NCBI GenBank assembly: GCA_020048295.1
Contig: JAIFMT010000215.1
Coordinates: forward strand, 1-5,893
Length of the DNA stretch: 5,893 nucleotides
Direction of reading: 5' to 3'
Source of the DNA: Rhodoferax sp.
GTDB lineage: Bacteria; Pseudomonadota; Gammaproteobacteria; Burkholderiales; Burkholderiaceae
Shown here in pieces: positions 1 through 5,893 of this stretch (position 1 is its first letter; each line of letters begins with the position of its first letter). A program made the translations under genes and the position numbers. The notes beneath the pieces were generated by a model. It ran no database searches. It was not told the origin of the DNA and saw only the letters and a list, made by a program, of their open reading frames with translations.

Positions 1-548
1 GCCACCACGCCAAAGGCAACGCTCTTGCTGACGATCCACAAATCGCCCCCCCCGAGCGCGTACACCGCAGGTGCCAGCAGCGCCGCCACAATGGAGGCCA
101 GCGACGAGTAGCGAAACAGCACGGCGGTGGCCAGCCAGATCAGCAAGGTGGCCAGTCCCAGCCAGCCGTTGAGCCCCAGCAACACGCCCGCCGCCGTGGC
201 AACCCCCTTGCCGCCTGCAAAATTGAAAAACACCGGATAGACATGCCCCAGAAACGCGGCCAGCCCGACCATCGCCACGGTGCCGTCGTCCAGCCCATAC
301 GGCTGGCCAAACCAGCGCACCAGCATCACCGGCAGCCAGCCCTTGGCGGCATCGAGCAGCAGCGTGATGACCGCCGCCGCCTTGGAGCCCGAGCGCAGCA
401 CATTGGTGGCCCCCGGGTTTTTGCTGCCAAACGTGCGCGGATCACTCAGACCCATGACACGGCTGACGATCACCGCAAAAGACAGCGAGCCGACCAGGTA
501 GGCCGCGATGGCCGCCAGCACCGGCAAAAAACTCTTGATCGATTCCAA
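1..548 (-). CDS. plsY: Glycerol-3-phosphate acyltransferase PlsY, 3' end cut by the window
   Basis: This integral inner-membrane enzyme transfers an acyl group from acyl-phosphate (made by PlsX) to glycerol-3-phosphate, giving lysophosphatidic acid, the first step of phospholipid synthesis. 182 codons are visible. Family motifs are clear: [12 protein letters not shown] at residues 41-52 (motif 1) and [15 protein letters not shown] at about 101-115 (motif 2, glycerol-phosphate binding). Hydrophobic segments lie around residues 7-28, 57-77, 91-110 and 119-165. The third conserved motif near the C-terminus falls outside the window, so roughly the last 20 residues are missing, judged from the usual length of about 200. 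The start is taken as TTG at 548-546: it stands 5 bases after a good AGGAG, gives the expected N-terminus [20 protein letters not shown], and no ATG or GTG lies nearby in frame. It follows ybaK by 71 bases on the same strand and may be co-transcribed with it. An eight-C run at 46-53 is read through in frame. Confidence 0.95.
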
Positions 549-553
549 ATGAA

Positions 554-558
554 CTCCT
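554..558 (-). promoter_or_regulatory. Ribosome binding site of plsY, deciding a TTG start
   Basis: AGGAG on the minus strand, followed by TTCAT and then TTG. The 5-base spacing to TTG, and the lack of any nearby in-frame ATG or GTG, support TTG as the start codon. Confidence 0.75.
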
Positions 559-619
559 GTTGACCCGGCCCACCCGTTGCGCCGCGCAGGCCGCGATTTT
601 GCCAGCTTGAGAAAAGGCC

Positions 620-1117
620 TCAGTCGGCCAGCGCCAGCGCGCATTGCACCGGCAGGGCCCCCAGCACTTGCACACACACCTGCGGGTCGATGCCCACCAG
701 ATAGCCACGCCGGCCGCCGTTGATCAGGATCTTGGGCAACGCCAGAATGCTCGACTCAATGAACACCGGCATGGCACGGCGCGTGCCAAACGGCGATGTA
801 CCGCCCACCAAGAATCCGCTATGCCGATTGGCGGTCTCTGGCGTGCAAGGTTCCACCGATTTGGCGCCAATCTGGCGCGCCAGATTTTTGGTCGAAACCT
901 TGCGGTTGCCATGCATCAGCACCACCAGTGGCTTGGCCTCCTGGTCTTGCATGATGAGGGTTTTGACCACCGCAAACGGGTCCCAGTCCAGCACGGTCGC
1001 ACTGTGCTGCGCGCCGCCATGCTCCAGGTATTCGTAAGGATGCTCGGTAAACGCCACTTTGTTGGCTTTGAGCCACTGGGTTGCGGGGGTTTCAGAGACG
1101 TGATCTTTTTTGGCCAT
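620..1117 (-). CDS. ybaK: Cys-tRNA(Pro) deacylase, YbaK/EbsC family
   Basis: This is a cytoplasmic trans-editing enzyme that hydrolyses cysteine wrongly attached to tRNA(Pro) by prolyl-tRNA synthetase. The 165-residue product has the normal length of the family and is a single YbaK domain. Visible markers are the VVKTLI segment (residues 50-55), whose Lys52 corresponds to the essential lysine of the family, [12 protein letters not shown] (70-81), the GGTSPFGTR loop (105-113) and INGGRRG (132-138) followed by DP at 144-145. The start is ATG at 1117-1115. There is no clear Shine-Dalgarno sequence before it, and an in-frame TGA not far upstream limits any longer form to a CTG start. A -10-like CATAAT places the predicted transcription start on the A of this ATG, so the mRNA could be leaderless. 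It lies 88 bases after the chemoreceptor gene and 71 bases before plsY. The family call is very secure; the gene's own promoter is inferred. Confidence 0.95.
869..886. repeat. Perfect 18-bp palindrome inside ybaK
   Basis: AATCTGGCGCGCCAGATT is its own reverse complement. It overlaps by two bases a second palindrome, TTGGCGCCAA (861-870). Read on the plus strand it forms a 7-bp stem with a CGCG loop, running into a TTTTT tract (885-889). It lies within the codons for NLARQI of ybaK, so the palindrome may simply reflect codon choice. Confidence 0.6.
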
Positions 1118-1123
1118 CGGTGA

Positions 1124-1129
1124 ATTATG
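1124..1129 (-). promoter_or_regulatory. Possible -10 element for leaderless ybaK transcription
   Basis: CATAAT on the minus strand matches TATAAT at five of six positions. Counting from it, the +1 position falls on base 1117, the A of the ybaK ATG. No good -35 hexamer is found at 16-18 bases upstream, where the sequence is GC-rich. The rest of the 88-base gap (1118-1205) holds a threefold CAGG repeat (1193-1204) next to the chemoreceptor stop and no convincing terminator with a T-tract. Confidence 0.3.
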
Positions 1130-1205
1130 CAGACTTCACTTCCATGCCCGCCGGGTCCGGCCGCCCAAGGCGCAGCAACGTGGCCCCGCGCCCAGGCAGG
1201 CAGGC

Positions 1206-2765
1206 CTATTTCAGCAGTGGCAGGCGCCCCGACAGGCTGTTCACACGCAGCGCACCCGCCATCTTGAACACCGACACCGCGCGCACCAGTTGCGCTGTCA
1301 ACTCACGCAAACTGGCGGCAGCCGCAGCAGACTGCTGCACCAGCGCAGCATTTTGCTGCGTCATGGCGTCGAGTTCTGAAATATCGCGGCTGACCACGCC
1401 AATGCTGTCCGACTGCTCGCTGCTGGCATCGCTGATCTGGCCAATGATGTCAACCACGCGCTGCACACCCGCCACAATTTCGCTCATGGCAGCGCCGGCA
1501 TCGTTGACCAGCTTCAAACCGCTGTCCACCTTGCTGCCCGAGGCATGGATCAGCGCCTTGATCTCCTTGGCTGCATCTGCCGAGCGTCCGGCCAGCGAGC
1601 GCACCTCGCTGGCTACCACCGCAAAACCCCGCCCTTGTTCACCCGCGCGTGCAGCTTCCACCGCAGCGTTGAGCGCCAGAATGTTGGTCTGGAAGGCAAT
1701 GCCGTCAATCACCCCGATGATGTCGTTGATCTTGCGCGATGCCACGCTGATCTGGTCCATGTTTTGCACCACTTGCGAGACGATGCCACCGCCGCGCTGC
1801 GCTGCATCCGATACCGTGGTGGCGAGTTGTTTGGCCTGCTGCGCGGAGCCGGCGCTGTGCCCGACCTTGCCGGTAATCTGGTCCAACTCGCTGGCCACCC
1901 GCTGCAAGTTGCTGGCGGTTTGTTCGGTTCTGCCGCTCAAATCCTGGTTACCCGAGGCAATCTCTGCCGAAGCGGTGTCAATCGAGTCGGCGGTTTGTCG
2001 GATGGAGCCCACAATGTCGCGCAACCGATGTGTCATGCTCGCCACCGAGGCGTGCAGCGAGGTCTGGTCGCTGGCCACTTCAGCGGTGCCATCTGTATCG
2101 AGGTCACCCTCAGCCACCCGGCGCATCAGGTCGCGCAGCTGCGCGGGTTCACCACCCAGGTCCTGCCACACGGAAGACACGATAAACCGCGACCCCAGCC
2201 CCAGCCCGAGCAAGATCAGCACGGCCGTGATGCCACTGATCCACAGACCTTGGCGTTGGCCCTCGGCCAGCGCGACAAACTGACCTTCCAGCGTTGCGCG
2301 CGCCTGCTTTTGCTGCGCCTCAAACTGCTCTTTCCAGCGCATTTGGGTGTCTTGCATTTGCTTCATCAGCACCTGTGGATCTTCTTTTTTCAGCATCGCC
2401 TGGGTGGCGGCCACAGCAGCGCTCTGGTAGGCCTCAAACGCCTGCGACAAGCCGGCCACTGCGTCTTGCTTGCCTGCCAACTGCCGCGCCTGGTCCAGCG
2501 CTTCACGCACCAACTTGACCTTGCCCTGCGCCTCCTTCAACTTGTCGGCATCACCCTCCATGGCGGCCGATTGCAAATCTGCCTGCAGCAACTCACTGCC
2601 ACGCTCGGCGCGCAGCAGGTGCTCGATATAGGGGTTGTCAACCGCTCTGAGCGTTTCAAGATGACTGGTGTTACGGGCACCCAGTAGCAGGCTCAGCATT
2701 AGCCCCACACCGAAAGCCAAACCCACGCTAATGGGAAGCAACCAGATTCTGGCGCGAAATTTCAT
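1206..2765 (-). CDS. Methyl-accepting chemotaxis protein, Tsr-type signalling domain
   Basis: A 519-residue inner-membrane chemoreceptor that should control CheA through CheW. In order: TM1 (about 7-29), a mostly helical alanine-rich periplasmic sensor of about 145 residues that looks like a four-helix bundle (30-173), TM2 (174-196), HAMP (about 197-250) and the cytoplasmic signalling helices. The hairpin tip is unmistakable (about 349-406, with [20 protein letters not shown] at 359-377 and [10 protein letters not shown] after it). The distance from methylation site 3 (Gln296) to the tip glutamate (Glu376) equals that in E. coli Tsr, so this is the 36-heptad class. Of the Tsr methylation sites, site 1 is Gln282 and site 3 is Gln296, but site 2 is Arg289. 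In the C-terminal helix the usual EE is Gln477-Gln478. The C-terminus ends in LPLLK, without the NWETF-type CheR/CheB tether. ATG at 2765 follows AGGG by 7 bases and starts 12 bases after the PstS-like gene, so it is the last gene of a three-gene operon. The ligand is unknown. Confidence 0.96.
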
Positions 2766-2777
2766 GGCAAAACCCTG

Positions 2778-3173
2778 TCAATTCAGGCTGAAAGCGACTT
2801 TGACCGTGCTGTCAACGGCAGATTTGTCGATGTATCCAATAGATTTCGGGTTGGCAGCCACGGCCTTCTTGACCGCCTGCGCATCGGCCTGCTCGGCCGG
2901 CGCCAGGCCTTTGCCACTGAACACCACGCGCGACCACACCGACTTGACCTGCATCAGATCGCGCCCGGTGGCCTTTTGATAAAACTCGGCGCGCGCCGGT
3001 GCCGACTCGGGCAAGTCCAGCGGCACAAATTCCTTGCTCTTGCCCAGATAAACGTCCACAACCTGCTCTTTGGTCGGTGCAGTGGCAGCCGGGTTGACAA
3101 TCACCACAATTTCAGCATGGACGGCGCTGGCAATACAAAAAAGGGCTGACAAAACAACGGCGTAGCTTTTCAT
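2778..3173 (-). CDS. Small secreted PstS-like (phosphate-binding-type) periplasmic protein
   Basis: The 131-residue product has a clear signal peptide: Lys2, a hydrophobic core, then VHA at 18-20 before Glu21, leaving about 111 mature residues. The mature part matches, by recognition, the short single-domain relatives of phosphate ABC transporter binding proteins (PBP-like family): IVVIVNP (22-28), KEQVVDVYLGK (35-45), FYQKATGR (64-71), VWSRVVFSGKG (79-89) and NPKSIGYID (108-116). Full PstS proteins are about 300-350 residues with two lobes, so this protein is much shorter and may bind ligand differently or not at all. No permease or ATPase genes accompany it, which argues against a transport role. 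ATG at 3173 is preceded by AAGGGA, which overlaps the TGA region of the barrel gene; the gap is 11 bases, so the two are very probably translationally linked. It is 12 bases ahead of the chemoreceptor gene, suggesting it presents a ligand to that receptor. Phosphate as ligand is only a family-based guess. Confidence 0.85.
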   Translation of the reverse strand: MKSYAVVLSALFCIASAVHAEIVVIVNPAATAPTKEQVVDVYLGKSKEFVPLDLPESAPARAEFYQKATGRDLMQVKSVWSRVVFSGKGLAPAEQADAQAVKKAVAANPKSIGYIDKSAVDSTVKVAFSLN

Positions 3174-3184
3174 GGTGTGTCCCT

Positions 3185-4282
3185 TCAGAATACAAAGTCC
3201 AGCGCCACGCTGAGCACGTTGGCGCTCGGGTCGGTATTAAACGCCGGCTTGGCATTCACCAATTGCCCTCTGGAGAACACCCGCTCAAGTTGCATCTTCA
3301 GTGCGGCATTCTTCATCAGGTCCCAGCGCATGCCTACGGCATTGGTGTGCGAGTCGGAATCGGAGTTGAAAACCGTGCCTTTTCCCTGCATGCGGCTGAC
3401 GATGACATACGGGGTCAACGCGCCCAGGCGGTAGCCCGCGCTGAAGTAGTAGCTGTTGGTGTCAAACATGCCGGTGTTGGTGCGCCGCGTCAGGTACTCG
3501 GAAAGCACCACCAGTTGTCCGTTGTCGTATTGCACGCCAAGTCCGGAAAAAGTGTCCTTGGTTTTAGGAATCGCAAAGGGCAGTCCTTCTGGCTTGAGGT
3601 CGGGGTCTGTGGTACGGCCATAGCGCAACAGCCAGTTGCCACGCTCGGCAGTCAGGTTCAGGCTGAACAGCTCGCCGTAATTCATCGTGATTTCGCGCTC
3701 AAAAACATACACCTTGGCGGTGTCCGACTTGCCAGCACTCAGCTGCAGCGTGACATTGGTGTCGCCAAAACTGTCATGCATACTGGCCATGACACCGTCA
3801 AACGATGAGGGCGGAAACATCTGGTAGGCCTCTTGCGGTGCCCGCAACCAAACCTGCGCATAACCCACACTGCGGGTGTCGGACACCATGAAGGTCGGCA
3901 ACACCATGCGCCCCAGCCGCACATCGAGCCACGGGGTGGCTGCCGCTTGCACAAACAGCCATTCCACCTGCGGCATCTCGCTGCCGTCACGCCGACCAGT
4001 CAGCAATTGACCAACCGCAGAAAAAGTGTCGTTAAAGCTGGCGTTGACCTGCAGGCCCAGGCGCGAATCAACGCCCAGGTCGGGCGATGTCGTGGCACCG
4101 TTGGACTGCCGCCCGGAAGAGCGAAACTGCGCCAGATCGGTGTTCGTCACCACCGCTCCCACGGTACCAAAACCGCTGAATTTATAGCTGATCGCCTCAT
4201 CAGCCTGGGCTTGTCCGGCAGCGCACAGGCACAACCCCAGCAAGCCATGCACAACGGCATTATGTCGATTTGAAATGTTCAT
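3185..4282 (-). CDS. Porin-like outer-membrane beta-barrel protein
   Basis: The 365-residue product has a signal peptide (Arg6 and His7, hydrophobic core 9-22, AQA at 25-27 before Asp28), giving a mature protein of about 338 residues. The mature part alternates hydrophobic and polar residues with many aromatics, starts with a typical first strand (YKFSGFGTVGAV) and ends in VALDFVF. A terminal Phe with this pattern is the outer-membrane assembly signal. No lipobox or TonB box is evident. Strand-like stretches such as WLDVRLGRMVLPTFMV and NWLLRYGR recall general porins, but the family cannot be fixed by eye. A longer reading from position 4435 exists, but ATG at 4282 is chosen because it follows GAGGT by 5 bases and begins the signal peptide. 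It is the first gene of the operon with the PstS-like protein and the chemoreceptor. It could be a diffusion channel for the ligand sensed by the other two, or a structural barrel; the substrate is unknown. Confidence 0.85.
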   Translation of the reverse strand: MNISNRHNAVVHGLLGLCLCAAGQAQADEAISYKFSGFGTVGAVVTNTDLAQFRSSGRQSNGATTSPDLGVDSRLGLQVNASFNDTFSAVGQLLTGRRDGSEMPQVEWLFVQAAATPWLDVRLGRMVLPTFMVSDTRSVGYAQVWLRAPQEAYQMFPPSSFDGVMASMHDSFGDTNVTLQLSAGKSDTAKVYVFEREITMNYGELFSLNLTAERGNWLLRYGRTTDPDLKPEGLPFAIPKTKDTFSGLGVQYDNGQLVVLSEYLTRRTNTGMFDTNSYYFSAGYRLGALTPYVIVSRMQGKGTVFNSDSDSHTNAVGMRWDLMKNAALKMQLERVFSRGQLVNAKPAFNTDPSANVLSVALDFVF

Positions 4283-4287
4283 GTTGG

Positions 4288-4292
4288 ACCTC
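4288..4292 (-). promoter_or_regulatory. Ribosome binding site of the porin-like gene
   Basis: GAGGT on the minus strand followed by CCAAC and then ATG. This decides the start at 4282 over the longer in-frame reading, whose extra N-terminal residues would bury the signal peptide. Confidence 0.75.
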
Positions 4293-4453
4293 GGATGAAT
4301 AGACAAACGCTCCAGCAGACCGCATGGCGTGATACCGCCTGATGTCCGGCCAAGACACGACAGCACGCGTCTGATGGCCCCGACTGTATCGCAAACTTCA
4401 TAGCGAGTGGCCCAAACAACGCAGAAAAAAGCCAACGAAAAATGCCCTTGGTT

Positions 4454-4504
4454 TCATGCTGCTCGCATGACGCCAGACCCCTCACGAGGCCATCAGGCAT
4501 GGCC
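4454..4504 (-). repeat. Two tandem small hairpins downstream of the tas-type gene
   Basis: Read on the minus strand, GGCCAT-GCCTG-ATGGCC (4504-4488) begins 8 bases after the aldo-keto reductase stop codon and is followed by TCATGC-GAGCA-GCATGA (4470-4454). Both have perfect 6-bp stems with 5-base loops. Neither runs directly into a T-tract; short T-runs come 10 to 30 bases later. They may form the 3' end of the reductase transcript or a regulatory site. The remainder of the 230-base gap (4283-4453) contains no promoter that I can defend. Confidence 0.4.
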
Positions 4505-4512
4505 ACGGGCGC

Positions 4513-5574
4513 TCAAATCGCCGGATCGCGCAGTTCCCAGCGAATGGCATCGATATCCCGAAGCAGTTCGGGTGACAGCGCGACGCCAAAAACCTCCATA
4601 TTTTCATCGAGCTGCGCCACCGAGGTGACCCCAATGATGGTGCTGGCCACACGCCACTGGGTATAGCAAAAGGCCAACGCCAGTTGCGTCGGGGTCAGGC
4701 CATGCTGTCGCGCCAGCGCGCTGTAGCGCCGCGCTGCCACCAGCGCCTCAGGGCGGCCCCAGCGTTGCTTGCGGGTGGACTCGAATTTGGTCAGGCGCGC
4801 GTCAGCGGGTGCAGCCTGCCCGGTCAGGCCGCTGACATCGTATTTGCCACTCAGCAAGCCAAACGACAGCGGCGAATACGCCAGCAGCGCCACCTGCAGA
4901 CGGTGCAGCGTCTCATCGAGCGCGTTTTCCACACTGCGATTCAGCAGGCTGTAGCCGTTCTGCACGCTGGCCACGCGCGGCAGACCGTGCTGCTCGGCCA
5001 GTCGCACAAACTCATGCACGCCGTACGGGGTTTCGTTACTCAGCCCCACGGCGCGCACCTTGCCCGCCTTGACCAGGGTGTGCAGGGCGTCGAGCTGGGC
5101 GTGGATGGACGTGCCCTCTTGCGCGCTGGGCTGGTAATACACGCTACCAAACATCGGCACGCTGCGCACCGGCCAGTGAATCTGGTACAGGTCAATCACA
5201 TCGGTGTGCAGGCGCTGCAGGCTACCTTCGCACGCGGCGATGATGTCGGCACCGGTCAAATCCGGGCTGCCGTTGCGAATCCACTTCATGGCACGGCTCG
5301 GGCCTGCCACCTTGGTGGCCAGAATGAGTTTTTGCCGCGCACCCGGACGCTGGCGCAGCCAGTTGCCAATGATTTTTTCGGTGGCGTTGAAGGTTTCGGC
5401 ACGTGGCGGCACGGCGTACATCTCGGCCGTGTCGATGAAGTTGATGCCGCGCTCCAGCGCGCGGTCAAGGATGTCAAAGGCGCCGGCTTCATCCACCTGC
5501 TCGCCAAAGGTCATGGTGCCCAGGCAGATTGGCGTAACAAACAGGTCGCTCTGACCCAGCTGAATGGTTTTCAT
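4513..5574 (-). CDS. tas: NADP(H)-dependent aldo-keto reductase, Tas type
   Basis: This is a soluble cytoplasmic (beta/alpha)8-barrel oxidoreductase that reduces carbonyl compounds with NADPH. The 353-residue length is close to E. coli Tas (about 346). The catalytic tetrad of the superfamily is complete: Asp48 and Tyr53 in GINFIDTAEMY (43-53), Lys88 in LATKVAG and His133 in LYQIHWPVR. The HWPxR element and the VGLSNETPYG stretch (176-185) favour the Tas subgroup. The C-terminal IIGVTSVAQLDENM is the usual cofactor-phosphate-binding region of the superfamily. E. coli Tas was found by rescuing tyrosine auxotrophy, but its natural substrate is not established, so no pathway is assigned. ATG at 5574 has only a weak ribosome binding site (TGAGA, 7 bases upstream), yet the N-terminus MKTIQLGQSDLFVTPICLGT fits the family. 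It is separated from the porin-like operon by 230 bases and is probably a separate unit. Confidence 0.92.
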   Translation of the reverse strand: MKTIQLGQSDLFVTPICLGTMTFGEQVDEAGAFDILDRALERGINFIDTAEMYAVPPRAETFNATEKIIGNWLRQRPGARQKLILATKVAGPSRAMKWIRNGSPDLTGADIIAACEGSLQRLHTDVIDLYQIHWPVRSVPMFGSVYYQPSAQEGTSIHAQLDALHTLVKAGKVRAVGLSNETPYGVHEFVRLAEQHGLPRVASVQNGYSLLNRSVENALDETLHRLQVALLAYSPLSFGLLSGKYDVSGLTGQAAPADARLTKFESTRKQRWGRPEALVAARRYSALARQHGLTPTQLALAFCYTQWRVASTIIGVTSVAQLDENMEVFGVALSPELLRDIDAIRWELRDPAI

Positions 5575-5697
5575 GAAACGGTCTCACGTGCAAAAAAAGG
5601 AAGCTGGAGTTTACGGCGGGGTCAGTCACTTGGGACTGATCTACGCCCGTGCAGCCCTTCTGCCCACCGGACCGATTCAGCCTGATGCGACACAAAA

Positions 5698-5726
5698 TTT
5701 ATAACAAATACGCCTCTAGCCCTTAA
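5698..5726 (-). promoter_or_regulatory. Candidate sigma-70-type promoter for the tas-type gene
   Basis: On the minus strand, TTAAGG (5726-5721) and TATAAA (5703-5698) are separated by 17 bases. The -10 matches at five of six positions and the -35 at three of six. The predicted start is near 5691. It is the best promoter-like pair seen in the AT-rich intergenic block. Confidence 0.35.
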
Positions 5727-5750
5727 GCATAAAGCGCTATCAGCTATTAT
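5711..5750. repeat. Dispersed intergenic repeat of the Comamonadaceae type (probable)
   Basis: The block starts with CGCCTCTAGCCCTTAAG and continues with AAAGCGCTATCAGCTATTAT. It forms an imperfect hairpin: TAGCCCTT (5717-5724) pairs with AAGCGCTA (5732-5739) with one C-C mismatch and a 7-base loop. From memory, a sequence of the form CTCTAGCGCTT...AAGCGC...AGCTATCA recurs between genes in Acidovorax, Polaromonas and Rhodoferax genomes. Only one copy is present here, so its repeated nature is not shown by the window itself. Confidence 0.5.
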
Positions 5751-5760
5751 TTTTATCAAT

Positions 5761-5893
5761 CCAGCCTGGTCTGCCCGTGATCCGGGTGCGATTCAAACGG
5801 GTGGGGTGTCTCTCGAAATCAATGCCTCAGTTTCTACCCGGCACGGCGACCGGGTCAGCGCTGACGGTTGCTGGACTGAGGTTCACGCCAAGC
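5761..5893. other. Window-edge segment with unassigned open frames
   Basis: A plus-strand frame is open from GTG at 5777 to the edge (39 codons), with an internal ATG at 5822, but neither has a good ribosome binding site. A minus-strand frame enters from the edge and ends at a TGA (5829-5827), its last residues reading SADPVAVPGRN. Either could be the edge of a neighbouring gene; neither resembles a protein that I recognise, and the segment is also dense in inverted repeats. Confidence 0.3.
5825..5881. repeat. Nested inverted repeats that could fold as a three-way junction
   Basis: Outer arms CCTCAGT (5825-5831) and ACTGAGG (5875-5881) pair perfectly over 7 bp. Inside are ACCCGG (5836-5841) with CCGGGT (5850-5855), a perfect 6-bp stem, and CAGC (5856-5859) with GCTG (5870-5873). 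An alternative is the perfect 12-bp palindrome GTCAGCGCTGAC (5854-5865). The pairing is seen directly; a structured RNA or operator role is inference. Confidence 0.45.

Follow-up and report, generated by a model that had tools for sequence, protein, structure and literature searches.

A porin, a single PstS-type lobe and a chemoreceptor encoded together in Rhodoferax sp.: a possible sensory relay across the cell envelope

To our knowledge, little is understood of how bacteria sense what crosses their outer membrane, and porins are usually regarded as passive. Here we analyze a 5,893-nucleotide stretch of DNA from Rhodoferax sp. (GenBank assembly GCA_020048295.1, contig JAIFMT010000215.1, positions 1 to 5,893; the whole stretch is hereafter the window), in which a three-gene unit encodes a porin, a small PstS-like protein that we call half-PstS, and a methyl-accepting chemotaxis protein (MCP). 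The binding proteins of the maltose-binding protein-Tar and XylFII-LytS systems are full flytraps, and maltose-binding protein contacts Tar at the membrane-distal end of its sensor domain. In the YfiBNR system, the output of YfiN is GGDEF. YfiR of that system is a small periplasmic messenger of the DUF4154 family, similar to a domain of ABC proteins, and an outer-membrane protein holds it; the lipoprotein YfiB is OmpA-like, and YfiN carries a periplasmic PAS domain (PMC4655355). In Pseudomonas aeruginosa, PstS feeds the chemoreceptor CtpL; the source describes this PstS as binding inorganic phosphate (Pi) very tightly and as belonging to the Pi transporter, with its gene lying by pstABC (PMC4926252). 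The word "porin" is absent from the main text of that paper (PMC4926252).

The Rhodoferax unit resembles each of these systems in part. Like PstS-CtpL, it has a PstS-type periplasmic protein that would serve a chemoreceptor, but here the protein is one lobe, its gene shares an operon with a porin and with its own receptor, and none of the window proteins is encoded by a pst gene. With maltose-binding protein-Tar and XylFII-LytS it shares a binding-protein fold that would signal to a four-helix sensor domain, whereas a single lobe takes the place of the full flytrap. The predicted model of the MCP sensor domain is similar to Tar/Tsr and to the LytS domain whose structure was determined in complex with XylFII, and its structural matches include Tar chains and the XylFII-LytSN complex (XylFII-LytS being identified by PDB title). 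The combination of an outer-membrane protein, a small periplasmic messenger and an inner-membrane sensor recalls YfiBNR, but the components here are a porin of the Porin_4 type, a single PstS lobe and an MCP with a four-helix domain, and DUF4154 had no match in half-PstS or 43 aligned relatives. Relative to the PstS family (TIGR02136), half-PstS is homologous to one lobe and lacks both the other lobe and the GSGT-type motif considered below, and no transporter genes adjoin it in the window. Measured against chemotaxis mediated by substrate-binding proteins, the unit shows an operon and genome-level co-occurrence with a chemoreceptor, but only one lobe of the fold. The unit would work like this form of chemotaxis and like YfiBNR, yet it lies outside both the PstS family and YfiBNR. 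No unit of porin, PstS-like protein and chemoreceptor or GGDEF protein was announced among the literature matches listed (open-licence papers; titles and abstract starts).

We consider it moderately probable that porin, half-PstS and MCP form a single relay dedicated to sensing across the cell envelope. The outer-membrane porin would admit or detect a stimulus, and half-PstS, as a secreted periplasmic go-between, would engage the four-helix domain of the MCP, by analogy most likely through protein-protein contact at the membrane-distal end; this contact would alter CheA control of flagella. The porin/half-PstS pair may be a portable input unit, wired elsewhere to a histidine kinase with the same sensor domain and, in other genomes, to GGDEF/EAL proteins with other (dCache-like) sensors. 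We infer the contact between half-PstS and the sensor, the direction of signaling and the stimulus; judged by their sequences, the porin, half-PstS and the four-helix sensor are co-inherited. A preliminary description of this DNA had proposed a sensory chain running from a porin through a PstS-like binding protein to the chemoreceptor, with phosphate or another oxyanion as a ligand suggested by the fold. Gene co-occurrence and the tracking of the pair by the sensor domain support the chain; a full binding protein and an oxyanion ligand find no support.

Gene neighborhoods were compared in three sets, which share some genomes: the best 80 of 454 loci, 60 regions called the class sample (58 from that sample and 2 from another search), and 80 family-sample regions. 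Sensor genes (MCP, GGDEF/EAL or histidine kinase) were recognized by sequence motifs, and some were missed at contig ends. After removal of identical half-PstS sequences (loci L001-L316), a porin adjoins 251 of 256 distinct half-PstS, and a same-strand MCP, cyclic di-GMP (c-di-GMP) or histidine-kinase gene lies near 161 of them. By set, porin adjacency was 79/82, 61/63 and 80/81 half-PstS genes, and a same-strand sensor accompanied 68/82, 30/63 and 52/81. With either strand counted, a sensor lies at most two genes away in 96 of 131 loci (140 were given, of which 131 had a called half-PstS gene), compared to 1 sensor and 0 porins among 214 more distant genes of the same loci, and local chance was rejected on this comparison as the source of sensor adjacency. 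The preliminary description had set rare co-occurrence as refutation; we found the opposite, with the porin near-invariant, sensors enriched and the sensor domain tracking the pair. It is the porin, and not the chemoreceptor, that is the near-invariant partner; the sensor output varies.

The commonest gene order is porin, half-PstS, sensor; other orders are sensor, porin, half-PstS; half-PstS, porin, GGDEF; and sensor, half-PstS, porin. Rubrivivax benzoatilyticus JA2 (L006) is among the strains with the operon. Third genes confirmed with Pfam include MCPs (L022, L069 and L120), a hybrid kinase (L135) and GGDEF-EAL proteins with a dCache-like sensor (L004 and L124), dCache being above the Pfam cut-off only in L178; the third gene of L164 encodes a GGDEF protein with HAMP and PAS. 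Other genes after the pair are varied (FeoB, an ABC exporter, PriA, a metallophosphoesterase and more), and L126 and L161 have an upstream MCP. Partner type tracks the phylogeny of half-PstS (255 sequences), changing 46 times, compared to a mean of 113 and a minimum of 104 in 200 shuffles.

A sensor-domain profile constructed from 94 MCPs encoded downstream of half-PstS matches 97 of 111 distinct downstream MCPs, 94 of which are its own rows. Outside those rows, it matches 10 of 10 MCPs upstream of the porin, 3 of 5 MCPs directly upstream of half-PstS, the single MCP beyond a downstream porin (1/1), and 2 of 3 histidine kinases directly downstream of the pair; L057, an upstream MCP that is also a profile row, was left out of this independent count. 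The same input domain thus stands beside the same pair with its output swapped, which is the classic hallmark of an input domain that reads the pair. At the genome level, 53 of 66 family genomes that encode half-PstS have the sensor domain, compared to 0 of 40 genomes lacking half-PstS (Fisher p 7e-18, kinship ignored). The 66 were drawn from 85 family-sample genomes with matches, the 19 omitted having only weaker ones, and the 40 are no-match genomes, 20 each from the order and family samples. MCPs are present in 35 of the 40 genomes lacking half-PstS, at up to 34 per genome, yet none has the sensor domain. The query alignment itself contained rows from at least 10 of the 66 genomes (L049, L076, L210, L211, L243, L248, L258, L272, L280 and L285); without those 10, the sensor domain is present in 43 of 56.

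Forty-five of 57 sensor-domain genes lie at most 4 kb from a half-PstS gene, as measured with 76 of the 142 half-PstS matches in the family sample. Stretches of 6-9.5 kb around the 12 unlinked genes, two of which (L353 and L363) are at a contig start, contained no porin or half-PstS gene. Ten of the 12 are the sole copy in their genome, so every half-PstS in those genomes lacks a helical sensor beside it. Genomes G909, G991 and G1120 each have three half-PstS matches (E < 1e-30) and one helical sensor gene, which suggests that many inputs feed one receptor.

Several results weigh against the relay. By motifs, 95 of 256 pairs are without a same-strand sensor, some of them from contig ends, and 13 of the 66 half-PstS genomes are without the sensor domain. 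Ten loci represent 10 of those 13 genomes; in eight of them a GGDEF/EAL gene lies downstream of the pair, and another, L271, has one on the opposite strand, 383 bases off. The sensor domain was absent from all 30 GGDEF/EAL partners and from both kinases encoded upstream of the porin. The profile also misses 14 of the 111 distinct downstream MCPs. The 13 of these that are listed (12 Undibacterium loci and L042) all have a different N-terminus and begin about 130-390 bases after half-PstS, a distance that makes the MCP probably a separate gene. Conservation at the sensor tip, the presumed membrane-distal end, stands out only slightly (mean 1.44 vs 1.22 bits, p 0.013), a difference too small to build on. 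Mean-field couplings over 273 porin/half-PstS pairs (effective number of sequences, Meff, 211) gave some sensible pairs within proteins and scattered pairs between them; the maxima were 7.1 standard deviations (sd) between porin and half-PstS vs 10.7 sd within half-PstS, a comparison that has no permuted control.

By its predicted structure, half-PstS is an isolated single PstS lobe with half of the ligand cleft absent. Compared as a single sequence, it matches TIGR02136 at E 0.0099 and 15.1 bits, far below the cut-off of 206.6; profile comparison matches it to PstS 4exl (E 0.0023), and in the nine best rows its predicted model aligns to a single segment of about 125-155 residues within PstS-type chains that are 239-298 residues long. 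The earlier designation "PstS-like" holds only weakly by single sequence and is supported by profile and predicted structure, for one lobe and not for a full binding protein. A GSGT-type motif is a phosphate-binding feature of PstS proteins, and GSG followed by T, S or A is present in 1 of 279 distinct half-PstS sequences. We rejected half-PstS as a normal phosphate-binding protein on the TIGR02136 score, the single lobe and the rarity of the motif. Because of the last two, binding of phosphate or another oxyanion is unsupported, and the suggestion that half-PstS is a binding protein for such ligands has no backing. With a lobe and a motif lost, we therefore lean to a protein messenger over a phosphate carrier. 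One speculative extension, which we regard as possible without expecting it to hold, is that the lobe lost its ligand duty and became a protein messenger reporting the state or traffic of one porin. The pair would then be a widespread, undescribed "input cartridge" for chemotaxis, histidine-kinase or c-di-GMP outputs, with several porins converging on one receptor in G909, G991 and G1120.

Half-PstS also occurs as the C-terminal domain of proteins of 563-751 amino acids (L155:5064-7319, minus strand; L157:5241-7265, minus; L158:3731-5437, plus; L167:4983-6674, minus). By eye, their N-terminus is J-domain-like, and they contain a long linker of low complexity as well as a hydrophobic segment; the L157 protein had no Pfam match. 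The next gene encodes a porin in L155 and otherwise a protein of 368-379 amino acids of no assigned family.

A sequestration mechanism like that of YfiBNR would make half-PstS a free messenger or inhibitor without a small ligand: the porin would sense (occlusion, voltage or envelope stress) and would hold or release half-PstS, which would act on the inner-membrane receptor. We think this rather unlikely, given that the porin/half-PstS coupling analysis was without an interaction signal and that the outer-membrane part of YfiBNR is an OmpA-like lipoprotein and not a porin. In a classical ligand shuttle, half-PstS would bind phosphate or another oxyanion admitted by the porin and deliver it to the MCP, in the way that PstS serves CtpL. 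Its predicted PstS-type fold, the PstS-CtpL precedent (PMC4926252), and one relative whose neighbor is Porin_O_P-like, above the Pfam cut-off (L137), are in its favor, but the missing half of the cleft, the near absence of the GSGT-type motif and the lack of pst genes among the window proteins make it improbable. A half-PstS dimer may rebuild a cleft.

Half-PstS could instead be a porin accessory that gates or plugs the porin, helps assemble it or hands over substrate, with the MCP as a frequent but separate neighbor. This would fit the near-invariance of the porin, which the sensor does not share, as well as a tandem array of half-PstS and porin genes without a recognized sensor (L127:1-16001, in genome G016, which has nine half-PstS matches) and six sensorless pairs in loci with flhB-flhA. 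The sensor domain, however, co-occurs with half-PstS genome-wide even where unlinked and is common to two kinases, and we hold the accessory role to be very improbable. The six loci whose pair has no adjacent sensor and which contain flhB-flhA are L001, L003, L005, L010, L036 and L053, five of them named Aquabacterium; among loci of at least 9 kb, flhB-flhA accompanied 6 of 33 no-sensor pairs and none of the 90 pairs that have a sensor, which may point to a link with flagella. That the three genes are merely chance neighbors in one genome is contradicted by the neighborhood, control-gene and genome-level counts, and we give it almost no credence.

Half-PstS matches were found in 61 of 398 phylum, 82 of 369 class, 78 of 399 order and 85 of 399 family genomes (about 15-22%). 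Weak rows are counted here, some of them with an open frame as long as that of a full PstS, and the tallies are otherwise lower bounds, as only the best 10-11 candidates were scored per genome. If the relay proposed here is correct, about this share of the sampled genomes would link porins to receptors through a periplasmic protein dedicated to the task, and proteins named "ABC-type phosphate transport system substrate-binding protein" would be messengers under a wrong label. Half-PstS and its four-helix sensor, two families that no Pfam model covers, would at once become testable.

Within the window, the unit runs in the transcription order porin, half-PstS, MCP (Table 1). The open reading frames bear out the operon described earlier, including its gaps of 11 bases between porin and half-PstS (3174-3184) and 12 bases between half-PstS and MCP (2766-2777), and the unit is presumably read as one transcript. 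Half-PstS and MCP share a reading frame. A purine-rich stretch ahead of the ATG, judged by eye, provides a candidate ribosome site for each of the three genes. A scan for sigma-70-like promoters returned none (1.2 expected by chance). No ABC permease or ATPase was found among the six window proteins scanned with Pfam, in agreement with the absence of transporter components noted before.

Table 1. Features of the porin/half-PstS/MCP unit at positions 1206-4282 of the window
Feature	Position	Strand	Description
Porin gene	3185..4282	-	ATG at 4282; 365 amino acids; Porin_4; first in operon
Half-PstS gene	2778..3173	-	131 amino acids; signal peptide and one isolated PstS-type lobe (predicted)
Predicted signal peptide of half-PstS	3114..3173	-	Amino acids 1-20; ends AVHA; hydrophobic from amino acid 8; predicted local distance difference test (pLDDT) 50-54
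MCP gene	1206..2765	-	519 amino acids; MCPsignal E 5.7e-50; signaling hairpin
MCP sensor domain	2226..2690	-	Amino acids 26-180; predicted four-helix bundle; without Pfam model
MCP signaling domain	1362..1826	-	Amino acids 314-468; PF00015 match

Pfam Porin_4 (PF13609) matches the porin at E 5e-13 and 50 bits, above the curated cut-off of 27. The porin ends in LDFVF, and a terminal Phe is typical of outer-membrane barrels. The hydrophobic segments of the MCP start at amino acids 10 and 178 and enclose its periplasmic domain. The MCP has features of four-helix-bundle chemoreceptors, namely a predicted periplasmic four-helix domain between two transmembrane segments and a signaling hairpin; HAMP scored E 0.19 and 12.5 bits against a cut-off of 25. 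The minus strand also carries plsY, cut by the window edge, and two flanking genes of ordinary kind, for a YbaK-type deacylase at 620-1117 and, upstream of the porin at 4513-5574, for an aldo-keto reductase that we take to be Tas-like.

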